Source: Candidatus Uhrbacteria bacterium
GTDB taxonomy: Bacteria > Patescibacteriota > Patescibacteriia > 2-12-FULL-60-25
Assembly (NCBI GenBank): GCA_018499965.2
Contig: JAHBAS020000024.1
Location: 1-64,000 of the forward strand
DNA length: 64,000 nucleotides
Reading direction: 5' to 3'
A model generated the notes under the pieces. That model had not been told where the DNA came from, made no database searches, and worked only from the letters and a program-made list of their open reading frames with translations. The position numbers and the translations under genes were made by a program. Below, in pieces: positions 11,022-56,645 of this stretch. The number at the start of each line of letters is the position of its first letter. Positions within the stretch are counted from its first letter, which is position 1.

Positions 11022-11208
11022 GGAACCCCTAAATCCCCTTATCAGGGGACTTGAGCGCGGTACTAAGTAGGTATCAGATCATGATTCTTAAAAAGAAGTT
11101 CCCCTCCTTTCGGCTTGCCGAAGGGAGGGGTTAGGGGTGGGTTTTGGGATCGGCACGATGCATTCAGCATCGCGCCAAAGTCCCCTGATAAGGGGATTTA
11201 GGGGTTCC
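11022..11208. mobile_element. MITE-like element with perfect 30-bp TIRs and a nested palindrome
   Basis: TIR GGAACCCCTAAATCCCCTTATCAGGGGACT at 11022-11051 and its exact reverse complement at 11179-11208; nested CCCCTCCTTTCGG...CCGAAGGGAGGGG at 11101-11130. Confidence 0.8.
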
Positions 11209-22807: not shown

Positions 22808-24844
22808 TTAGACGTTGGTTGAGCGAGATTTCAAGAAGAGCCACGGAGCGATTCGTGCGAGCGGCGTCAATGCAACAAGTTTTAAGAGCACACGCGTAAT
22901 CACGATCGCTGAGAACATCGATGTCACGATACCGATGGAAAGCGTGAGAGCAAACCCCTTAATCAAGGACGACGTGAAGAGGAAAAGCACCAAACACACG
23001 ATCAGCGTTGTTGCGTTTCCATCTCGAATGGATGGCCATGCACGCGTAAACGCATCATCGATAGCTAATCCCAAGGCTTTTCCGGACTTCAGTTCCTCCT
23101 TCATGCGCTCAAAAATCAGCACGTTCGCGTCAACAGCAATGCCGATCGATAAGATGAAACCAGCGATCCCGGACATACTCAACGTAACCGGAATGAGCTT
23201 GAAGAGCGCGATCACGATCGCCGAGTAGCACACGAGCGCTAACACAGACATGAGTCCAGGCACGCGATAGAACATGACCATAAAGATGATCACGAAGAGG
23301 AATCCGACCAATCCAGCCACGAGCGAAGCGGATACCGATTCTGCTCCAAGTACCGGACCAACGGACTGCTGGGCGACGAGCGAGATCGCAACCGGCAAAG
23401 CACCAGCCTGCAAACGCTGCGAAAGCTCCTTCGCTTCCTGAATCGTAAAGTTTCCGCTGATCACAGCCTGACCGCTTGGAATTTCATTCTGAACCGTCGG
23501 AATACTGATCGGCGTTCCATCGAGGTAAATCGCGACCGGCTTGCCGATATTGCGACGTGTGATTTCCGAAAACATCTTCGATCCTTCGCCGTCGAACTGA
23601 AGCGAGACCTGCGCAGAACCCGTTTGCGGATCAAAATCGAGCGTGGCGCGCTGCAAGTTCTTTCCGGTCAAATCCGTACGCTTATACGGTTCGCTATCAA
23701 CGATATCCGACTGCCGCTGCTTTGCGACAGCGATGATCGTGGCGCGCATATCCTCACGAGGACGTTCACCAGTCTTCTTGATCAAGTGGAATCCGAATGG
23801 CGTTTCAATAACCTCGGAGATTTTATTCGTTTCCATCCCGAATGCCTTATTTTCAAAGGCCTCAACCATGTCCCCCTTCTTGAACCAACCTAAATCCCCA
23901 CCCGTCTCTGCCGCACCAGGCTCCTGCGAATATTTACGAACCAATGTGTCAAAGTTTTCTGAAGTCGCCTCTTTTGCAATCTTTTCAATCAATGCCTTTG
24001 CTTCTTCTTTGGTGGTCGTCGCCGTGCTGCGCTCCGCTCCCTTCCACTGGATCAAAAGATGCGCTGCGCTTACTTCAGAACCGATCGACTTCTTTTCCTT
24101 GATATCAACCACAGCCAACGTCGATCCATCATCAACGACTTTTTTCACGAGACCGGCCGATTGGCCCTGAAGAACATCCAAAAGTCCCGCATAAGTCGTG
24201 TTCTCGGAAAGCCATCCAGCATCAACCGCGCCAGAAACGTAGGCATGATCTTTCTGGAGATCACGCGCGACTTCATCGAAGTTCGCGCTTGATTGCACGC
24301 GCGTAAGCGCTTCTTCCGCAACCTTTGTCCGCGTTTCATTTTCCGCGTTCAACGCCTTCGTTTCTTCTTCGGTCAATGCACGACCTGCATCCGGATTCTC
24401 TTCGCGGAATTCCAAGATCGGCGTTTCACCGATCATTTTAATGGCTTGATTAATATCACGAACACCTGCGAGTTCGATCGTAAGACGCCACTGTTCACCG
24501 GATTTGGTGGTCAACACGGTTGGCTCTGAAACACCCATTTGGTTCACGCGACGCTCAATCACGTTACGGACGCCATCCATCGCGCTCTGTCGATCCTTTT
24601 CCGGGATCTTTGAGAGATCAGCGACGTATTCCAGGTGCGTCCCTCCCTGCAAATCCAAACCAAGGACGATCGGGAAATTCACAGATGGGATCTTTGCACT
24701 CGTAAGGGCGTTTACACGTCCAATGAGCCAATTAGCCCCTTGCGGATATGAGATAGAACCCGCAACGAGGAAAAGCACAAAAACGAGTAATGCCCGCTTC
24801 ACTAACGACTTCTTCGGAGTCGAAACGTTCTTCGTGGTAGCCAT
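22808..24844 (-). CDS. secD: Protein translocase subunit SecD with embedded parvulin-type PPIase domain
   Basis: SecD signatures GLDLQGGTHLEYVAD, AVDANVLIFERMKEE; parvulin signature AAHLLIQ...FDTLVRKYSQEPGAAETGGDLGWFKKGDMVEAFENKAFGM...ETPFGFHLIKK. Confidence 0.95.
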   Translation of the reverse strand: MATTKNVSTPKKSLVKRALLVFVLFLVAGSISYPQGANWLIGRVNALTSAKIPSVNFPIVLGLDLQGGTHLEYVADLSKIPEKDRQSAMDGVRNVIERRVNQMGVSEPTVLTTKSGEQWRLTIELAGVRDINQAIKMIGETPILEFREENPDAGRALTEEETKALNAENETRTKVAEEALTRVQSSANFDEVARDLQKDHAYVSGAVDAGWLSENTTYAGLLDVLQGQSAGLVKKVVDDGSTLAVVDIKEKKSIGSEVSAAHLLIQWKGAERSTATTTKEEAKALIEKIAKEATSENFDTLVRKYSQEPGAAETGGDLGWFKKGDMVEAFENKAFGMETNKISEVIETPFGFHLIKKTGERPREDMRATIIAVAKQRQSDIVDSEPYKRTDLTGKNLQRATLDFDPQTGSAQVSLQFDGEGSKMFSEITRRNIGKPVAIYLDGTPISIPTVQNEIPSGQAVISGNFTIQEAKELSQRLQAGALPVAISLVAQQSVGPVLGAESVSASLVAGLVGFLFVIIFMVMFYRVPGLMSVLALVCYSAIVIALFKLIPVTLSMSGIAGFILSIGIAVDANVLIFERMKEELKSGKALGLAIDDAFTRAWPSIRDGNATTLIVCLVLFLFTSSLIKGFALTLSIGIVTSMFSAIVITRVLLKLVALTPLARIAPWLFLKSRSTNV

Positions 24845-24922: not shown

Positions 24923-24951
24923 TTGACAAAATGACCATTTTATGTTATCTT
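24923..24951 (+). promoter_or_regulatory. Sigma70-type promoter TTGACA-N17-TATCTT
   Basis: Consensus -35, exact 17-nt spacer, good -10. Confidence 0.7.
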
Positions 24952-25072
24952 TATTTGTTCTCTAGAAGATCCGGAAGCCCCTTCCAAACCCTAGAGCGAG
25001 GAGAGACGACCGACGCATCAAGGTCGAAAAAGAACAGATGTTCGGTTTTGTGATAACAAAGCCAAAAATATG

Positions 25073-25104
25073 ACCGGCTCTCCTCAAAAAAGACGCCGGT
25101 TTTT
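25073..25104 (+). terminator. Terminator-like hairpin in leader
   Basis: ACCGGC-tctcctcaaaaaagac-GCCGGT-TTTT. Confidence 0.5.
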
Positions 25105-25131
25105 AGATCTTTATTCCGGTGATTCGACATA

Positions 25132-25232
25132 TCCCCTCACTTCAGGGCGCGAACAACATTCGTGAAATGAAGCGAGGGAGTATGGAACGCATGTCGCGTT
25201 TCACATCTTCCTCACTCAAAAGAGGATATCCC
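25132..25232 (+). promoter_or_regulatory. Structured leader copy A
   Basis: Homologous to copy B at 25560-25661; CCCTCACTTCA/TGAAGCGAGGG stem with inner CGAA/TTCG, plus GCGTTT hairpin. Confidence 0.6.
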
Positions 25233-25517
25233 ATGAATACCGCAGTCGCACTTTCCACCACCATGATCAATACCCGCACCACCCGTCGCTCTCTCAAAGA
25301 GCTTTGCCAACTCGCAATTGATGCCAATGCCGGCGTCGAACAAGTCGAGGCCATCGAATGTCTCTCTCGAGACTATGGAATCACGGAACGGCAACGACAG
25401 GCCCTTCGGACAAGGCTCTATCACATCGCCTTCCGCTACGCCTTCAAAAGCGACCCGAATGCCTGGCAAAGGCTCCATACGGAATTCGGCAAGATGAAGC
25501 CATTGAAGAATAACTGA
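25233..25517 (+). CDS. Orphan small protein
   Basis: 94 aa from MNTAVALSTTM; shares a leader type with the next gene. Confidence 0.6.
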   Translation: MNTAVALSTTMINTRTTRRSLKELCQLAIDANAGVEQVEAIECLSRDYGITERQRQALRTRLYHIAFRYAFKSDPNAWQRLHTEFGKMKPLKNN

Positions 25518-25559
25518 TCTTAGGTGGGACTTACGAGAGCGTTAGACATTCGTCTACGC

Positions 25560-25661
25560 TCTCCCCTCACTCCATCACACGAAACATATTCGCGGGATGA
25601 AGCGAGGGAGCATTCAAACGCACATCGCGTTTCATGACTTCCTCATACGGAGCACTTTCCC
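25560..25661 (+). promoter_or_regulatory. Structured leader copy B
   Basis: Shares CCCCTCACT, ATTCG, ATGAAGCGAGGGAG, TCGCGTTTCA and CTTCCTCA blocks with copy A in the same order. Confidence 0.6.
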
Positions 25662-25952
25662 ATGAACACTCGTTCAAGCGCAGTCGTCGATTCCACCGTC
25701 ACTTCCGAAGAAGAACTTAGCCTCGTCCTGGCCGACACACCCATCAGCGATGACGATATCAACTTTCTCTTCAACGGAGCGTTCGATCAGGAATTTTCCG
25801 GAGAAGTTACGGTCCAAAAACCGACGATAGAGAGCAGCATGAACTTCGATACGTTCCTCGCTTCCGGAATCGACCCCACGACGATCGGCGACGAGGCAGC
25901 ACCACTTACGCTGCCATCCACGCTTCTCCTGCGAAACGGAGAAGGGAGCTAA
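25662..25952 (+). CDS. Orphan small acidic protein
   Basis: 96 aa MNTRSSAVVDSTVTSEEELSLVLADTP...; ATG follows leader B. Confidence 0.6.
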   Translation: MNTRSSAVVDSTVTSEEELSLVLADTPISDDDINFLFNGAFDQEFSGEVTVQKPTIESSMNFDTFLASGIDPTTIGDEAAPLTLPSTLLLRNGEGS

Positions 25953-26133
25953 CGAGCTTCAACTCGCGTCACGCGGACGCAAACAGGATTGAGGAAAACA
26001 CTCGTTTTCCTCTCCTCACCTCAACGCTTCATGCCGCATGCATGGAACCTCGAGATGAGGATGCATCCTACGCACCTCGACAATCACACAAACCGGGACT
26101 CATCATCCCAACAACCGCATCGTGGAGGCAATC

Positions 26134-27426
26134 ATGTCGCTCTCTCAAGTTCTCGCAGACGTCTTCGGTATTAGCCGCAAACCAGCGAAGAAGCCAGAAA
26201 AGCAATTACCGACGATCATCGTCACACAACCCGCGGCAGCACAAGCAGGAAAAACCCAACCTTCCCAACGGAAGCAAGTAGAACAAACGAAGCGCAAGGG
26301 TCCACCGCCGCTTCCGCCGCCAGGAAGCCCTGTCTACGCAGAGGCCGCCCAAGGAGCTCGAGCTTTTCCAAAAGCCGCACATCCAACGGCAACCCTTTCG
26401 CCTCAACAGGAGTACGAGCGATCCAGAGCAGTGTTTCTCGCAAACCAACCCGCAAGTGCAGATCTAAATGCGCTCACATCGGATCTGGATCAAGAATGGA
26501 CCGCTATGGCAGATCAAGCACGTCAACAAAAGACGATGATGATGCCGCCCCGTCGTGCCACAGCGCCAGTCGCAATGACACCCACAACCGCGCCCACACG
26601 GACGCTCTACATGGAAGGAGCCATTCAAGTCCTACCATCGCCGCAAGCAGTGACTTCGACATCTTCGAAACCACCAGCTCCAAAGCGAACCATGGTCGGT
26701 ATCGGATCACCTACGCCGCCCGTGGCCGTACACGTGCCGCCTCAATCGAGACGACCCACGCCACCGCCAACGGCACCGACGCGCACTCCTGGAGGCAATC
26801 ACACCATCATGGGGTTCCCACAGGTACCGACAGCGGCCGCCGTTCCAGCAGCAACCGCCAAGCAACGCATCATGCCACCGAATACGCGGCAGACTATAAC
26901 CAGCGGACTATTCGACAAGACCAGACAGCCCGCAATGCCCGCGCCACTCAATGCACGAGAACAACTACGCCAAGGTCTGAGCACGGAACATGGACTATGG
27001 TATCTCTGCCAGCTATCCGAAATCATTTCACATGAACCACAAGGTGACGCAAAACCAATCACGATGGACTGCAACGGCTTGCCGATGTATTCAACCGGCA
27101 TTCTCGAGCGAGCCATCGCGAACGGCTATCGAGTCATCCTGTTGATCGACCGATTCAACTGCAAAGAGCAGCAGCCGGAAAGCAATCAGCCTGGGTGGTG
27201 GATGCAATATCTCGCATCGCAAGATGTCGTGATCAGCATCGATCAATTCTCAGGCAGTCATGCCGACCGACTTCTCTGGGCATGGAGGTCTATCTACGAT
27301 GCCATCGGCGCAAGTCAATTCGTTTCCCCTCGGATGACGCACGAGCAGCTTCGAGATAGCGTCCATCTGTATCAAGTCAGTCGCGGAAACAATATCCGCG
27401 CCTTCAATATCCGAGCCGCGTCCTAA
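26134..27426 (+). CDS. Orphan protein: Pro/Thr-rich N-terminal half and globular C-terminal domain
   Basis: About 430 aa; GGAGGCAATC precedes ATG at 26134 (ORF extends to 26122). Confidence 0.65.
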   Translation: MSLSQVLADVFGISRKPAKKPEKQLPTIIVTQPAAAQAGKTQPSQRKQVEQTKRKGPPPLPPPGSPVYAEAAQGARAFPKAAHPTATLSPQQEYERSRAVFLANQPASADLNALTSDLDQEWTAMADQARQQKTMMMPPRRATAPVAMTPTTAPTRTLYMEGAIQVLPSPQAVTSTSSKPPAPKRTMVGIGSPTPPVAVHVPPQSRRPTPPPTAPTRTPGGNHTIMGFPQVPTAAAVPAATAKQRIMPPNTRQTITSGLFDKTRQPAMPAPLNAREQLRQGLSTEHGLWYLCQLSEIISHEPQGDAKPITMDCNGLPMYSTGILERAIANGYRVILLIDRFNCKEQQPESNQPGWWMQYLASQDVVISIDQFSGSHADRLLWAWRSIYDAIGASQFVSPRMTHEQLRDSVHLYQVSRGNNIRAFNIRAAS

Positions 27427-27515
27427 CGCAGCTCATTCGCCCTTTCCCCTTTAACCTTCTCACCGTACCGAATTGCCATAGCAATCCGGTACAGAACAGA
27501 ACGTTGAAGCAATCA

Positions 27516-27557
27516 AAAAATCTCCTCACTTACAACAGAGTGACGGAGATTTTTTAT
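27516..27557. terminator. Bidirectional terminator between convergent genes
   Basis: AAAAAATCTCCTCAC...GTGACGGAGATTTTTT. Confidence 0.75.
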
Positions 27558-28069
27558 ACGACAGCTTTCATGAACGCACCCACGCCCATACCGATCAGGA
27601 TCGCTAATCCACCGAGAACAGCCATACGAAGACCGCTTCTGAAGATGCGCGTTCGGGAAACGCTTCCACTCCAAACGCCAAGCAAGAAAAGCGCGAGAAT
27701 AGACGAAGCGATGGAAACCGGAAACGCCGCAGCCACTGGAAGGATCATGTACGGTAAGAGCGGAACGAATCCAGCAAAAAAATATCCGGCGAACATCAAA
27801 AACGCCGCAGGGATAGATGCGATAGATGAAGATTCTTTTCGAAGCAAGAATTCCGCACCGGATCGCTCCGAAAGATAACTCCCGACGCCCATCGAAAACG
27901 CTTCGACAAAAATAACCACGATCCCGGTGATAAAAATGATGGATCGCGGAACATCTGCGAATGCGACGCCCGAAAGCACGCCAACCGTTGATACGAGACT
28001 GTCTTCAACGCCAAAAATAAAATTCCGAAACTGCTGGGCTTGCGATGAGCGCGGATGAAAAAGTCGCAT
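27554..28069 (-). CDS. VIT1/CCC1-family transporter
   Basis: FIFGVEDSLVSTVGVLSGVA; EAFSMGVGSYLSERS. Confidence 0.88.
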   Translation of the reverse strand: MRLFHPRSSQAQQFRNFIFGVEDSLVSTVGVLSGVAFADVPRSIIFITGIVVIFVEAFSMGVGSYLSERSGAEFLLRKESSSIASIPAAFLMFAGYFFAGFVPLLPYMILPVAAAFPVSIASSILALFLLGVWSGSVSRTRIFRSGLRMAVLGGLAILIGMGVGAFMKAVV

Positions 28070-28673: not shown

Positions 28674-28751
28674 ATCGTCTGAACCAGGATTCTCAGGATT
28701 TAAGGATTTTCAGGATTGATAATACGAGACGAGATAGGCAAAAACGCTCTT

Positions 28752-28794
28752 AGTACCGCGCTCAAGTCCCCTGACAAGGGGATTTAGGGGTTCT
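28752..28794. repeat. Solo half of the MITE-like TIR family
   Basis: AGTACCGCGCTCAAGTCCCCTGACAAGGGGATTTAGGGGTTC. Confidence 0.8.
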
Positions 28795-43113: not shown

Positions 43114-43491
43114 CTACGCCTTCCTCACCACCCTCACCCCTTCTTTTATTCCCCACTCCGCAGCTTTCCCGGCATTCACTTCAAGTACGTGATTCGCGGA
43201 GACGCGAGAACAAATAATCCGAGGCAACGCGAACCCTTTTGGATACGGAACATTCGAGACCACGGAAACAACGATACCATTACGAATAAAAATAATATCG
43301 ATCGGAAACTTCATGCCGAACATCCAAAAATATTGAACGGATACGAATGGAAAAACAAAGAGCATGCCATGATTCACATCTAAACCTTCACGTCCGAACA
43401 ATCCCCTCATCCGCGCCCACCACGAAGAAGCGATCTCAACGAAAATTTCGCGATCACCGATTTGGAGAATGGTTGAGTTGAGTGGCTTCAT
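43114..43491 (-). CDS. DUF192 protein
   Basis: ARMRGLFGREGL...GMLFVFPFVSVQYFWMFGMKFPIDIIFI. Confidence 0.9.
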   Translation of the reverse strand: MKPLNSTILQIGDREIFVEIASSWWARMRGLFGREGLDVNHGMLFVFPFVSVQYFWMFGMKFPIDIIFIRNGIVVSVVSNVPYPKGFALPRIICSRVSANHVLEVNAGKAAEWGIKEGVRVVRKA

Positions 43492-43500
43492 ACGCTATCT

Positions 43501-43598
43501 AGAACCCCTAAATCCCCTTGTCAGGGGACTTGAGCGCGGTACTGAGGAGATATTTGCATTAAAGTCTCCCCTGACAAGGGGAGATTTAGAGGGGTTCT
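43501..43598. mobile_element. MITE-like element (98 bp) with TIRs between two DUF192 genes
   Basis: AGAACCCCTAAATCCCCTTGTCAGGGGACTT...AAGTCTCCCCTGACAAGGGGAGATTTAGAGGGGTTCT. Confidence 0.8.
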
Positions 43599-44116
43599 CA
43601 TCTAAACACCTCCACTCTCGTTCCCTCTACAATTCCCCACTCCGCGGCTTTCCCGGCGTTAATCTCTAGGACCTGATCTGCGTCCGTCTTTGATCGAACG
43701 ATCGCGGGCGTAAGGCTTTCGGATGTAGGAGGTGGAACATCTGCATGAACATCTACCACTACGCCTTCTCGAAGAAAAATGATATCGAGCGGAAATTTCA
43801 TGCGATGCATCCAGAATATTTGCGGTTCTGGTCGATCGAACAAGAAGAGCATGCCGTGATCGCTAGACAAAAACTCACGATCAGACAAGCCCTGCTCACG
43901 CGCCGCATTCGTCATCGCGAGTTCGACGACGATCTGACGCGAACCGACATCAACGAGCGCGCTTGGAAGCACGCCAACCACCGGCGTTTCCCGATGCGCC
44001 TCGCGCTCCATCTGCAACATTAAGCCAATAAATAACGCAGCGCAGGAAATGACAACGCAGCACGCCACGAGCATCTTTTGTCCCGGCAAGTGGCTATTTC
44101 CTGGCTTGACGAGCAT
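43598..44116 (-). CDS. DUF192 protein with N-terminal TM
   Basis: REQGLSDREFLSSDHGMLFLFDRPEPQIFWMHRMKFPLDIIFL. Confidence 0.9.
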   Translation of the reverse strand: MLVKPGNSHLPGQKMLVACCVVISCAALFIGLMLQMEREAHRETPVVGVLPSALVDVGSRQIVVELAMTNAAREQGLSDREFLSSDHGMLFLFDRPEPQIFWMHRMKFPLDIIFLREGVVVDVHADVPPPTSESLTPAIVRSKTDADQVLEINAGKAAEWGIVEGTRVEVFR

Positions 44117-54051: not shown

Positions 54052-54083
54052 TCTTGTCAGGGGACTTAAGCGCGGTACCGAGA
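54052..54083. repeat. Truncated copy of the MITE-like family at the uvrA 3' end
   Basis: CTTGTCAGGGGACTTAAGCGCGGTACCGAG. Confidence 0.75.
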
Positions 54084-54086
54084 GAG

Positions 54087-56645
54087 CTACTTCTTCAATA
54101 CCTTCCTCAAATACTGCCCCGTGTAACTCTCTTTGACCTTTACCACATCTTCCGGCGCTCCTTGTGCGACGATTTTTCCACCCAAATCTCCACCTTCCGG
54201 CCCGAGGTCAATGACCCAGTCGGCATTCTTGATGACGTCTAAGTTGTGCTCGATCACGACGACGCTGTTTCCGCGATTCACCAAACGATGCATCACTTCG
54301 AGAAGCTTGGCGATGTCATCGAAGTGCAATCCCGTGGTCGGCTCATCGAAAAGATAGAACGTCTTGCCCGTATCGCGACGCGAAAGTTCCGTGGCAAGCT
54401 TGACGCGCTGCGCTTCTCCGCCAGAAAGCGTGGTGGCGCCTTGTCCAAGGGAAATGTATCCGAGCCCGACTTCCATGAGCGTCTTGGTACGATCACGAAT
54501 CGGAGGGATATCCGCAAAGAAGGCATTCGCTTCTTCAATCGTCATCGAAAGTACATCGTGAATCGATTTGTTGCGATACTTCACTTCAAGCGTTTCGCGA
54601 CTAAAACGACGCCCCTTGCAAACATCGCAGGAAACGTACACCGTTGGCAGGAAATGCATTTCAATCGCAAGTTGCCCGTTTCCTTCACAGTGTTCACATC
54701 GACCGCCACCACGTGCCGCCGGAACGTTAAAACTAAAGCGTCCGACCTTATACCCACGCACGCGCGCTTCTGGCGTTAACGAAAAGAGATCGCGAACATG
54801 CGTCCAAATGCCTGTATACGTTGCAGGATTTGATCGCGGCGTTCGTCCGATCGGCGATTGATCCACGTCCACGATCTTATCCAGCCAATCCATACCCGTA
54901 ACGCCGCCATGCTTGCCGGATTCCGCCGTCGCACCATTAAGGCGCTTCGCGAGTTCACGATACAAGATATCGATCATGAGCGTGGACTTACCAGAACCGG
55001 ATACGCCGGTTACGCACACGAATCGCTTCAGCGGAATTTGCACGTTGATATTCTTGAGATTGTTCTCACGCGCGCCCTTGATTCCCAAAAAAGTCGTTGC
55101 TGGACCGCGACGCTTCTTTGGAAACGGAATGGATTTATCACCACGAAGATAGGCGCATGTCGAGCTCTCCGGCGTTTTCAATACCTCCGGCATCGGACCG
55201 GCGGCAACGATTTCTCCACCATGCCTTCCGGCACCAGGACCGATATCAACGAGATAGTCCGCAGCCGCGATCGTATCCTCGTCGTGCTCAACCACGATGA
55301 TGCTGTTCCCGAGATCCCGCAAGCGCTCCAGCGTTTCAACGAGCTTGGTATTGTCCCGCTGATGCAATCCGATCGTCGGCTCATCAAGAATGTAGAGCGT
55401 CCCAACGAGACGCGAGCCGATTTGCGATGCAAGTCGAATTCGTTGCGCCTCACCACCGCTCATGGACCCAGCACGTCGATCAAGCGTGAGGTAATGCAAC
55501 CCCACATCAAGTAAAAACGTTAAACGCGAGAGCACCTCTCGTAAAAGCGGCTCAGCGATGGCCGCATGTTGCTCGTTAAGTTTCAGGGTCGAAAAAAAGT
55601 CATGTGCCGCCTGAATATCCAACGCCGTCACCTCAACGATATTCTTCTTATTGATGAATACATGCAACGCCTCAAGACGAAGACGCGCACCCTTGCACGT
55701 TTCGCAGATCTCATCTGAAAAAACATCCTTCGTTCCCAATCCGTTACACGCTTCACATGCGCCGTACGGGGAATTGAACGAAAAAAGACGCGGCTCGATT
55801 TCCGGGAAGGTAAATCCGTCTTCGGGACAGGAAAAACGAGCACTCATCAACAACTCCGATCCGTCATCCAAAACCACGCGAACCGTATCTCCACCCCGCT
55901 CTAATGCAAGTTCAATCGCCTCACTCACGCGGGTTTGTAATCCCTTATTCCCTTTTACCGGCCATGCAAGCGGCACACGATCAATCACTAACTCAATCGT
56001 ATGCTGCTGATATCGCTTTAACTCCACACCTTCGCGCAACGAAACCACCTTGCCATCCACGCGCGCTTCTAAAAATCCATCGTGATAGTAATCCTGAAGG
56101 AGTTGATGATATTCACCCTTACGACCAAGCACGGACGGTGCTAATACGAGAATCTCGTTTCGATTCTCCCCTTTGCGTCCCTTGATCGCCGCAGGATCGG
56201 AATGGATTTCATCCGTACGCTTGATCACCGCATCCACCATTTCATCGATCGTCATTTTGCGAACCGGCTTTCCGGAAATCGGAGAAAACGGCTCGCCGAT
56301 GCGCGCGTACAACACGCGGAGGTAGTCGTAGATTTCCGTGATCGTAGCAACAGTCGATCGTGGATTATGCGAATGCGCTTTTTGGTCAATGGAAATCGCC
56401 GGAGAAAGCCCCTCGATCTCATCCACGTCCGGCTTGTCCATTTGACCCAAAAACTGCCGTGCGTACGCGCTCAGAGACTCCACATATCGACGCTGGCCTT
56501 CGGCAAAGATCGTATCAAACGCCAAACTCGACTTTCCAGATCCGGAAAGCCCCGTGAATACGACCAGCTTATTACGCGGAAGCTCAAGCGAAATATTCTT
56601 GAGATTATGCTCACGCGCGCCTTTGATGGAGATGATGTCTTTCAT
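54087..56645 (-). CDS. uvrA: Excinuclease UvrA (compact)
   Basis: [66 protein letters not shown]. Confidence 0.97.

Follow-up and report, generated by a model that had tools for sequence, protein, structure and literature searches.

Transcription attenuators and riboswitch expression platforms combine an alternative pairing with a terminator hairpin, both placed before the genes. Hairpins in intercistronic and 5' positions protect segments of operons such as malEFG, papBA and puf (PMC5927463). The hairpins in these operons are stable, lack a U tract, and are found in the gaps between cistrons and at cistron 5' ends. The twin leaders described here are likewise stable hairpins, in a gap or at a 5' end, with no U tract; they differ in that a single sequence module, which includes the start region, occupies two gaps. 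REP and MITE-type palindromes are also imperfect palindromes between genes. The leader, however, is present in two tandem copies, whereas the real dispersed repeat of this genome has 37 matches. Integron cassette arrays resemble the locus in that small orphan genes lie between imperfect palindromes (attC) that fold better on one strand, but here there is no core-site pair and no integrase among the operon ORFs, and the palindromes are located 5' rather than 3' of the genes.

The host is a Candidatus Uhrbacteria bacterium, and the window that we analysed is the stretch of 64,000 nucleotides at the start of contig JAHBAS020000024.1 (GCA_018499965.2). The leaders sit in a three-gene operon adjoining secD. 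As claimed in a sequence-only reading of this DNA, they are clearly present, at 25132-25235 and 25562-25664 on the + strand, with 76-77% identity; the alignment consists of 77% over 52 nt plus 83% over another 29 nt. They are in tandem, 430 nt apart. Both copies have the same layout: a first hairpin (H1), a second (H2), a pyrimidine box, CTTCCTCA, a Shine-Dalgarno sequence (AGAGGA and GGAG, respectively) and a start codon. The similarity extends beyond this codon (ATGAAyAC ... CGCAGTCG...TTCCACC) and includes a 9-nt in-frame indel 3' of the ATG, so that the duplicated unit is the leader with roughly the first dozen codons, after which similarity stops. The downstream proteins are different, again as had been noted, and ORF1 and ORF2 have no BLASTP similarity. 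When leader 1 was compared by blastn with the 1.11-Mb genome (46 contigs), the only matches were itself and 25562-25645 (76%, E = 2.2e-10). The copies look like the products of an old local duplication, neither recent nor near-identical. What the earlier reading had named as evidence against its own view, in keeping with a simple recent duplication, is largely what was found: there are only two copies, with no compensatory change, but they have diverged.

Both predicted hairpins of that reading were recovered, namely H1 (CCCTC.CTTCA/TGAAG.GAGGG, with an inner CGAA/TTCG) and H2 (AACGC/GCGTT). In copy 1, alignment and RNAfold place H1 at 25132-25178 and RNAfold places H2 at 25183-25203; in copy 2 the corresponding positions, on the same grounds, are 25562-25608 and 25614-25634. 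The pyrimidine boxes, at 25207-25214 and 25638-25645, are identical between the copies at 8/8 positions. A further hairpin, H0 (GAGAGCGTTAGAC/GTCTACGCTCTC), lies immediately 5' of copy 2, at 25534-25562; all of these features are on the + strand. RNAfold gives leader 1 an energy of -39.8 kcal/mol (z -4.85) and leader 2 an energy of -28.9 (z -3.75), and in each case 0/200 dinucleotide shuffles were as good. The box in copy 1 has two possible partners, the GAGGGAG of H1 or the Shine-Dalgarno sequence, and the alternative fold has an energy of -36.7 in this copy and -28.7 in copy 2.

The strand on which H1 folds best deserves comment. An A.C mismatch is kept in H1 of both copies, and copy 2 has two extra mismatches on the + strand, where standard pairs number 16/17 in copy 1 and 14/17 in copy 2. 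The A.C mismatches of the + strand all become G.U pairs on the minus strand, with 16/17 and 17/17 standard pairs, respectively, and H1 of copy 2 has an energy of -18.5 as mRNA versus -31.3 on the opposite strand. Two other hairpins, one at 26013 and one in a congener (G001), show the same minus-strand lean. The lean amounts to about 4 versus 1 independent changes (about five in all) and is not significant. Because the minus strand supports the H1 fold at least as well as the + strand does, the evidence does not favor the mRNA strand, and the active molecule may be mRNA or DNA.

The differences between the copies are distributed unevenly. They affect 5/48 stem positions and 16/37 other positions (Fisher p = 0.0008). 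Since changes avoid the predicted stems, the fold was retained after the duplication. Drift was simulated with 20 substitutions, in the observed proportion of 14 transitions and 6 transversions, using 2000 runs per direction and strand. On the + strand, runs as stable as the observed leader numbered 293/2000 from copy 1 to copy 2 and 23/2000 from copy 2 to copy 1; the equivalent values for the minus strand were 1/2000 and 106/2000. These data support the conclusion that the fold has been retained beyond what drift predicts and that the leader is a real, constrained element. Among 24 stem pairs, a comparison of little power with two copies, none had changed on both sides, 1 had changed on one side and 3 were broken. 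Between ATGAAGCGAGGG and the start codon, indels of +1 and -2 separate the two copies, a net 1 nt. The ATGAAGCGAGGG frame runs into ORF1 in one copy and in the other stops at a TGA overlapping the ORF2 start codon. The leader is non-coding, since these indels break the frame; the net 1-nt indel, together with weak codon usage in both leaders, also led us to reject a leader peptide attenuator.

What kind of RNA might this be? A covariance model was built on both leaders. In this genome it recovered the pair and nothing else, and 40 family genomes gave no match better than chance. The suggestion of a cis-regulatory RNA is partly supported: the leader has been kept while the protein has not, and it is folded, constrained and non-coding. 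The idea of a widespread RNA class finds no support, with two copies in one genome, none in the 40 others and 0/24 compensatory pairs. A riboswitch-like class is not supported, because there are only two copies with no compensatory change and H1 is predicted to be at least equally stable on the other strand; nor do these data provide evidence for a regulatory RNA class. No Rfam family matched the operon at its gathering score, and matches below that score were attributable to chance. A RAGATH-10 match at 26007-26064 (-), with 24.6 of the 41.2 bits required, was rejected as due to chance; it is absent from the corresponding sites of the congeners, and control genomes, E. coli among them, give weak matches too. 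A viral origin was rejected as well, since scans of viral contigs with the pattern and with ORF1 and ORF2 were negative, apart from 1 pattern match with no leader similarity around it. With two copies in the genome, a dispersed repeat was likewise rejected. The twin leaders are neither a ligand-sensing class nor a dispersed repeat.

The operon is flanked by secD (22808-24844, -) and by a convergent gene (27554-28069). The SecD protein itself carries an inserted PpiC/SurA-type peptidyl-prolyl isomerase domain, at about residues 170-365. ORF1 (25233-25517, +) encodes an orphan protein of 94 aa, predicted to be helical. Its codon usage favors the annotated frame over the +1 and +2 frames, although an antisense frame reaches the same score. 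Searches of 57 relatives, Pfam, PHROGs, PADLOC and NCBIfam gave no homologue, and fold prediction gave a low-confidence four-helix model (pLDDT 60) that is too weak to indicate function. ORF2 (25662-25952, +; 96 aa), for which codon usage also favors the annotated frame, is another orphan with no homologue in the 57 relatives. ORF3 (26134-27426, +), a proline-rich protein of 430 aa whose codon usage favors the annotated frame over its two same-strand alternatives, has a C-terminal 'YSTGILERA' domain in common with the syntenic operons of the congeners G001 and G003. Protein family searches with ORF1-3 gave no matches.

The ORF3 family is genus-specific and is represented by the window copy, by L062 4885-5430 (-) and by L064 1868-2320 and 2431-3069 (-). 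The motifs YSTGxLExA and WW are invariant, and the proline-rich N-terminal extension is limited to the window copy. Pfam and NCBIfam searches with the family gave no match, and those of PHROGs and PADLOC nothing noteworthy; the model of the domain (pLDDT 67) is too weak for interpretation and a PDB fold search with it gave no significant match.

In the gap between ORF2 and ORF3, at 25989-26066 (+), a hairpin (GAGGAAAAC/GTTTTCCTC) is followed by an H1-shaped one (CCTCACCTC/GAGATGAGG) with one C.A mismatch; the gap as a whole has a z of -3.7 on the + strand and -6.5 on the minus strand. Homology of the 26013 hairpin to H1 is not supported (8.3 bits, E 3.2). A bidirectional terminator-like hairpin (AAAAAATCTCCTCACT/AGTGACGGAGATTTTTT, 27515-27556) closes the operon against the convergent gene, in a gap with a z of -7.2. 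There is no promoter-like match between ORF1 and ORF2, and the two probably belong to one transcription unit, so that a shared leader would not be needed for their co-regulation. Several gaps elsewhere in the window also have z values below -5, partly due to terminators and dispersed repeats. The operon gaps are thus among the stronger examples of a widespread tendency toward structured gaps rather than something unique.

The equivalent operons in the congeners G001 and G003 are informative in this regard. The downstream genes vary among the three species, save for the shared C-terminal domain of ORF3. Nevertheless all operon gaps longer than 70 nt in the three genomes are structured, with coding-strand z values of -2.9 to -7.8, and the hairpins in the congener gaps have sequences mostly unrelated to H1. 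G003 has a repeated hairpin leader of its own, 25 nt with 96% identity (L064 3923-3947 and 4920-4944), which precedes two different small genes, with both copies inside large hairpins. A hairpin of G001, CCCCTCACTCCGGCACA...TGTGCCAAAGCGAGG (L062, about 4818-4743, minus), was tried as a relative of H1 and is no more than a possible one (10.5 bits, E 0.24); the 11 nt and the A.C mismatch that it has in common with H1 are suggestive at most. Because G003 possesses its own repeated leader and the congener hairpins are mostly unrelated, the recurrent feature is an architecture, with hairpins before cistrons that are sometimes copied within the operon, and not a particular sequence.

Upstream of the twin leaders lie a promoter and a second leader, which we call l0 (together 24923-25107, +; L062 6355-6155, -; L064 5375-5165, -). 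The promoter of the operon is sigma-70-like, TTGACA-17-TATCTT with a TG before the -10, at 24923-24951 (+), and matches the consensus at 10/12 positions; G001 and G003 have a promoter of like shape at the corresponding position. The attenuator-like l0 follows at 24953-25107 (+); in it a purine box (GAGGAGAGA) and a CGACC/GGTCG hairpin come before a terminator-like one (ACCGGC..GCCGGTTTTT) that carries CTCTCCTC in its loop and ends at 25107. The terminator and the antiterminator, in which the purine box pairs with the terminator loop, are nearly isoenergetic (-47.2/-47.4). The two energies are near equal in the window and in G001, and the terminator is favored in G003. Among 41 family genomes the l0 signature is found only in this genome, G001 and G003, always beside secD, with 0 matches for a control pattern. 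A stricter pattern gave 16 matches in the GTDB genomes, compared with about 15 expected by chance from base counts; two of these are the congeners and the others are in unrelated organisms, so that no further relatives emerged. With its promoter, alternative pairing and terminator-like hairpin ahead of genes, l0 resembles attenuators and riboswitch platforms; unlike them, it has no ligand, no leader peptide and no Rfam family at gathering score, and it occurs in three congeners only. If the operon is RNA-regulated, l0 is a better regulatory candidate than the twin leaders.

We favor, at about even odds, the explanation that the twin leaders arose long ago when a structured module for translation initiation, acting in cis on the mRNA, was duplicated locally in a fast-changing operon. 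H1 and H2 would belong to this module, as would the pyrimidine box, the ribosome-binding site and roughly the first twelve codons, copied together with the start codon. Each leader does end with a Shine-Dalgarno sequence and ATG, and the copies are unlike after the first codons. The mRNA would be the active molecule and the genes would be co-transcribed; most likely, the module would act in cis on this polycistronic message. The hairpins would delimit each cistron, would shield the start region against base pairing with sequence 5' of it and would slow mRNA decay, an insulating or stabilizing effect that would give each orphan gene a working mRNA leader. Counting against an mRNA module is the weaker H1 of copy 2 as mRNA, and against a role specific to this operon, the z values below -5 in other window gaps. 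Plain duplication followed by drift, in which the similarity is a functionless remnant of an ancient DNA copy and the hairpins are incidental, would also account for just two tandem copies without compensatory changes. This is unlikely, given that the differences spare the stems, that stability exceeds that of simulated drift and that the unit stops just past the start codon, as befits a functional 5' module. A translational switch would operate if the CTTCCTC of the pyrimidine box paired with GAGGGAG, breaking H1, or masked the Shine-Dalgarno sequence, with a signal, whether a protein, an RNA or the position of a ribosome, toggling both genes together in line with the earlier suggestion of co-regulation. 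The box and GAGGGAG are fully conserved in both copies, the alternative fold lies within 0.2 kcal/mol of the best one for copy 2 and within 3.1 for copy 1, and the Shine-Dalgarno sequence of copy 1 is almost completely paired. The freed 5' arm of copy 1, however, can mask this sequence equally, so that the alternative fold would not release it; purine and pyrimidine boxes are promiscuous in their pairing, and two copies without covariation make such a switch very doubtful.

The minus-strand lean raises the question of whether H1 acts as DNA or from the minus strand, as a protein-binding palindrome, a cruciform or a recombination hairpin aiding gene swaps. The better standard pairing of H1 on that strand, the like behavior of the 26013 and G001 hairpins, the exceptional minus-strand fold of copy 2 in the drift runs and the variable gene content of the operon from species to species all point this way. 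Yet the lean is not significant, the operon's own ORFs include no recombinase, the hairpins of the other species are unrelated in sequence, and there are no dispersed copies, although the real dispersed hairpin repeat of this genome has dozens of matches. Inspection by eye of 25107-25661 found no attC core pair (RYYYAAC...GTTRRRY), only a single GTTAGAC in H0, and an integron attC site was rejected. We regard a DNA-level or minus-strand element as highly improbable. Finally, control may lie upstream, with the l0 attenuator governing the operon and the twin leaders serving translation only. Such an arrangement is compatible with the duplicated module rather than exclusive of it, and is a tentative possibility. 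In its favor, l0 has been kept at the same site in three congeners while the genes after it were mostly replaced, and neither the stretch from the l0 terminator to leader 1 nor the ORF1-ORF2 gap holds another promoter-like match. On the other hand, l0 might be a small RNA that has a promoter and a terminator of its own, its terminator was missed in the window by a simple scan, probably because of the long loop, and only three sequences are available. A more elaborate scheme would join the two elements in a two-tier, RNA-controlled operon of fast turnover, in which l0 at its fixed site drives changing orphans, and new ones gain translation when they capture a copy of the resident hairpin leader and start codon; we consider this quite unlikely.

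RNA-level regulation in Patescibacteria has been little described, and a full-text literature search on this subject found nothing relevant. If the leader was copied before new ORFs, the locus would illustrate a concrete route by which orphan genes gain expression. Should l0 prove to be an attenuator, the genus would have a new regulatory RNA of its own. If neither is the case, this is an ordinary structured operon leader that was duplicated once.

Two minor observations concern repeated sequences in the window. The motif YCCTCAY occurs 23 times on the + strand, and 6/23 occurrences are within this 2.6-kb operon (25134, 25209, 25564, 25640, 26013 and 27523); duplication does not account for 4/6 of these. 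The dispersed MITE-like hairpin repeat (GAACCCCTAAATC..CCCCTTGTCAGGGGA and its inverse) is present in the window at 43488-43600, 11023-11207, 28749-28794 and 54053-54092, and its 37 genome matches at E below 0.001 provide a positive control for the kind of search applied to the leader.
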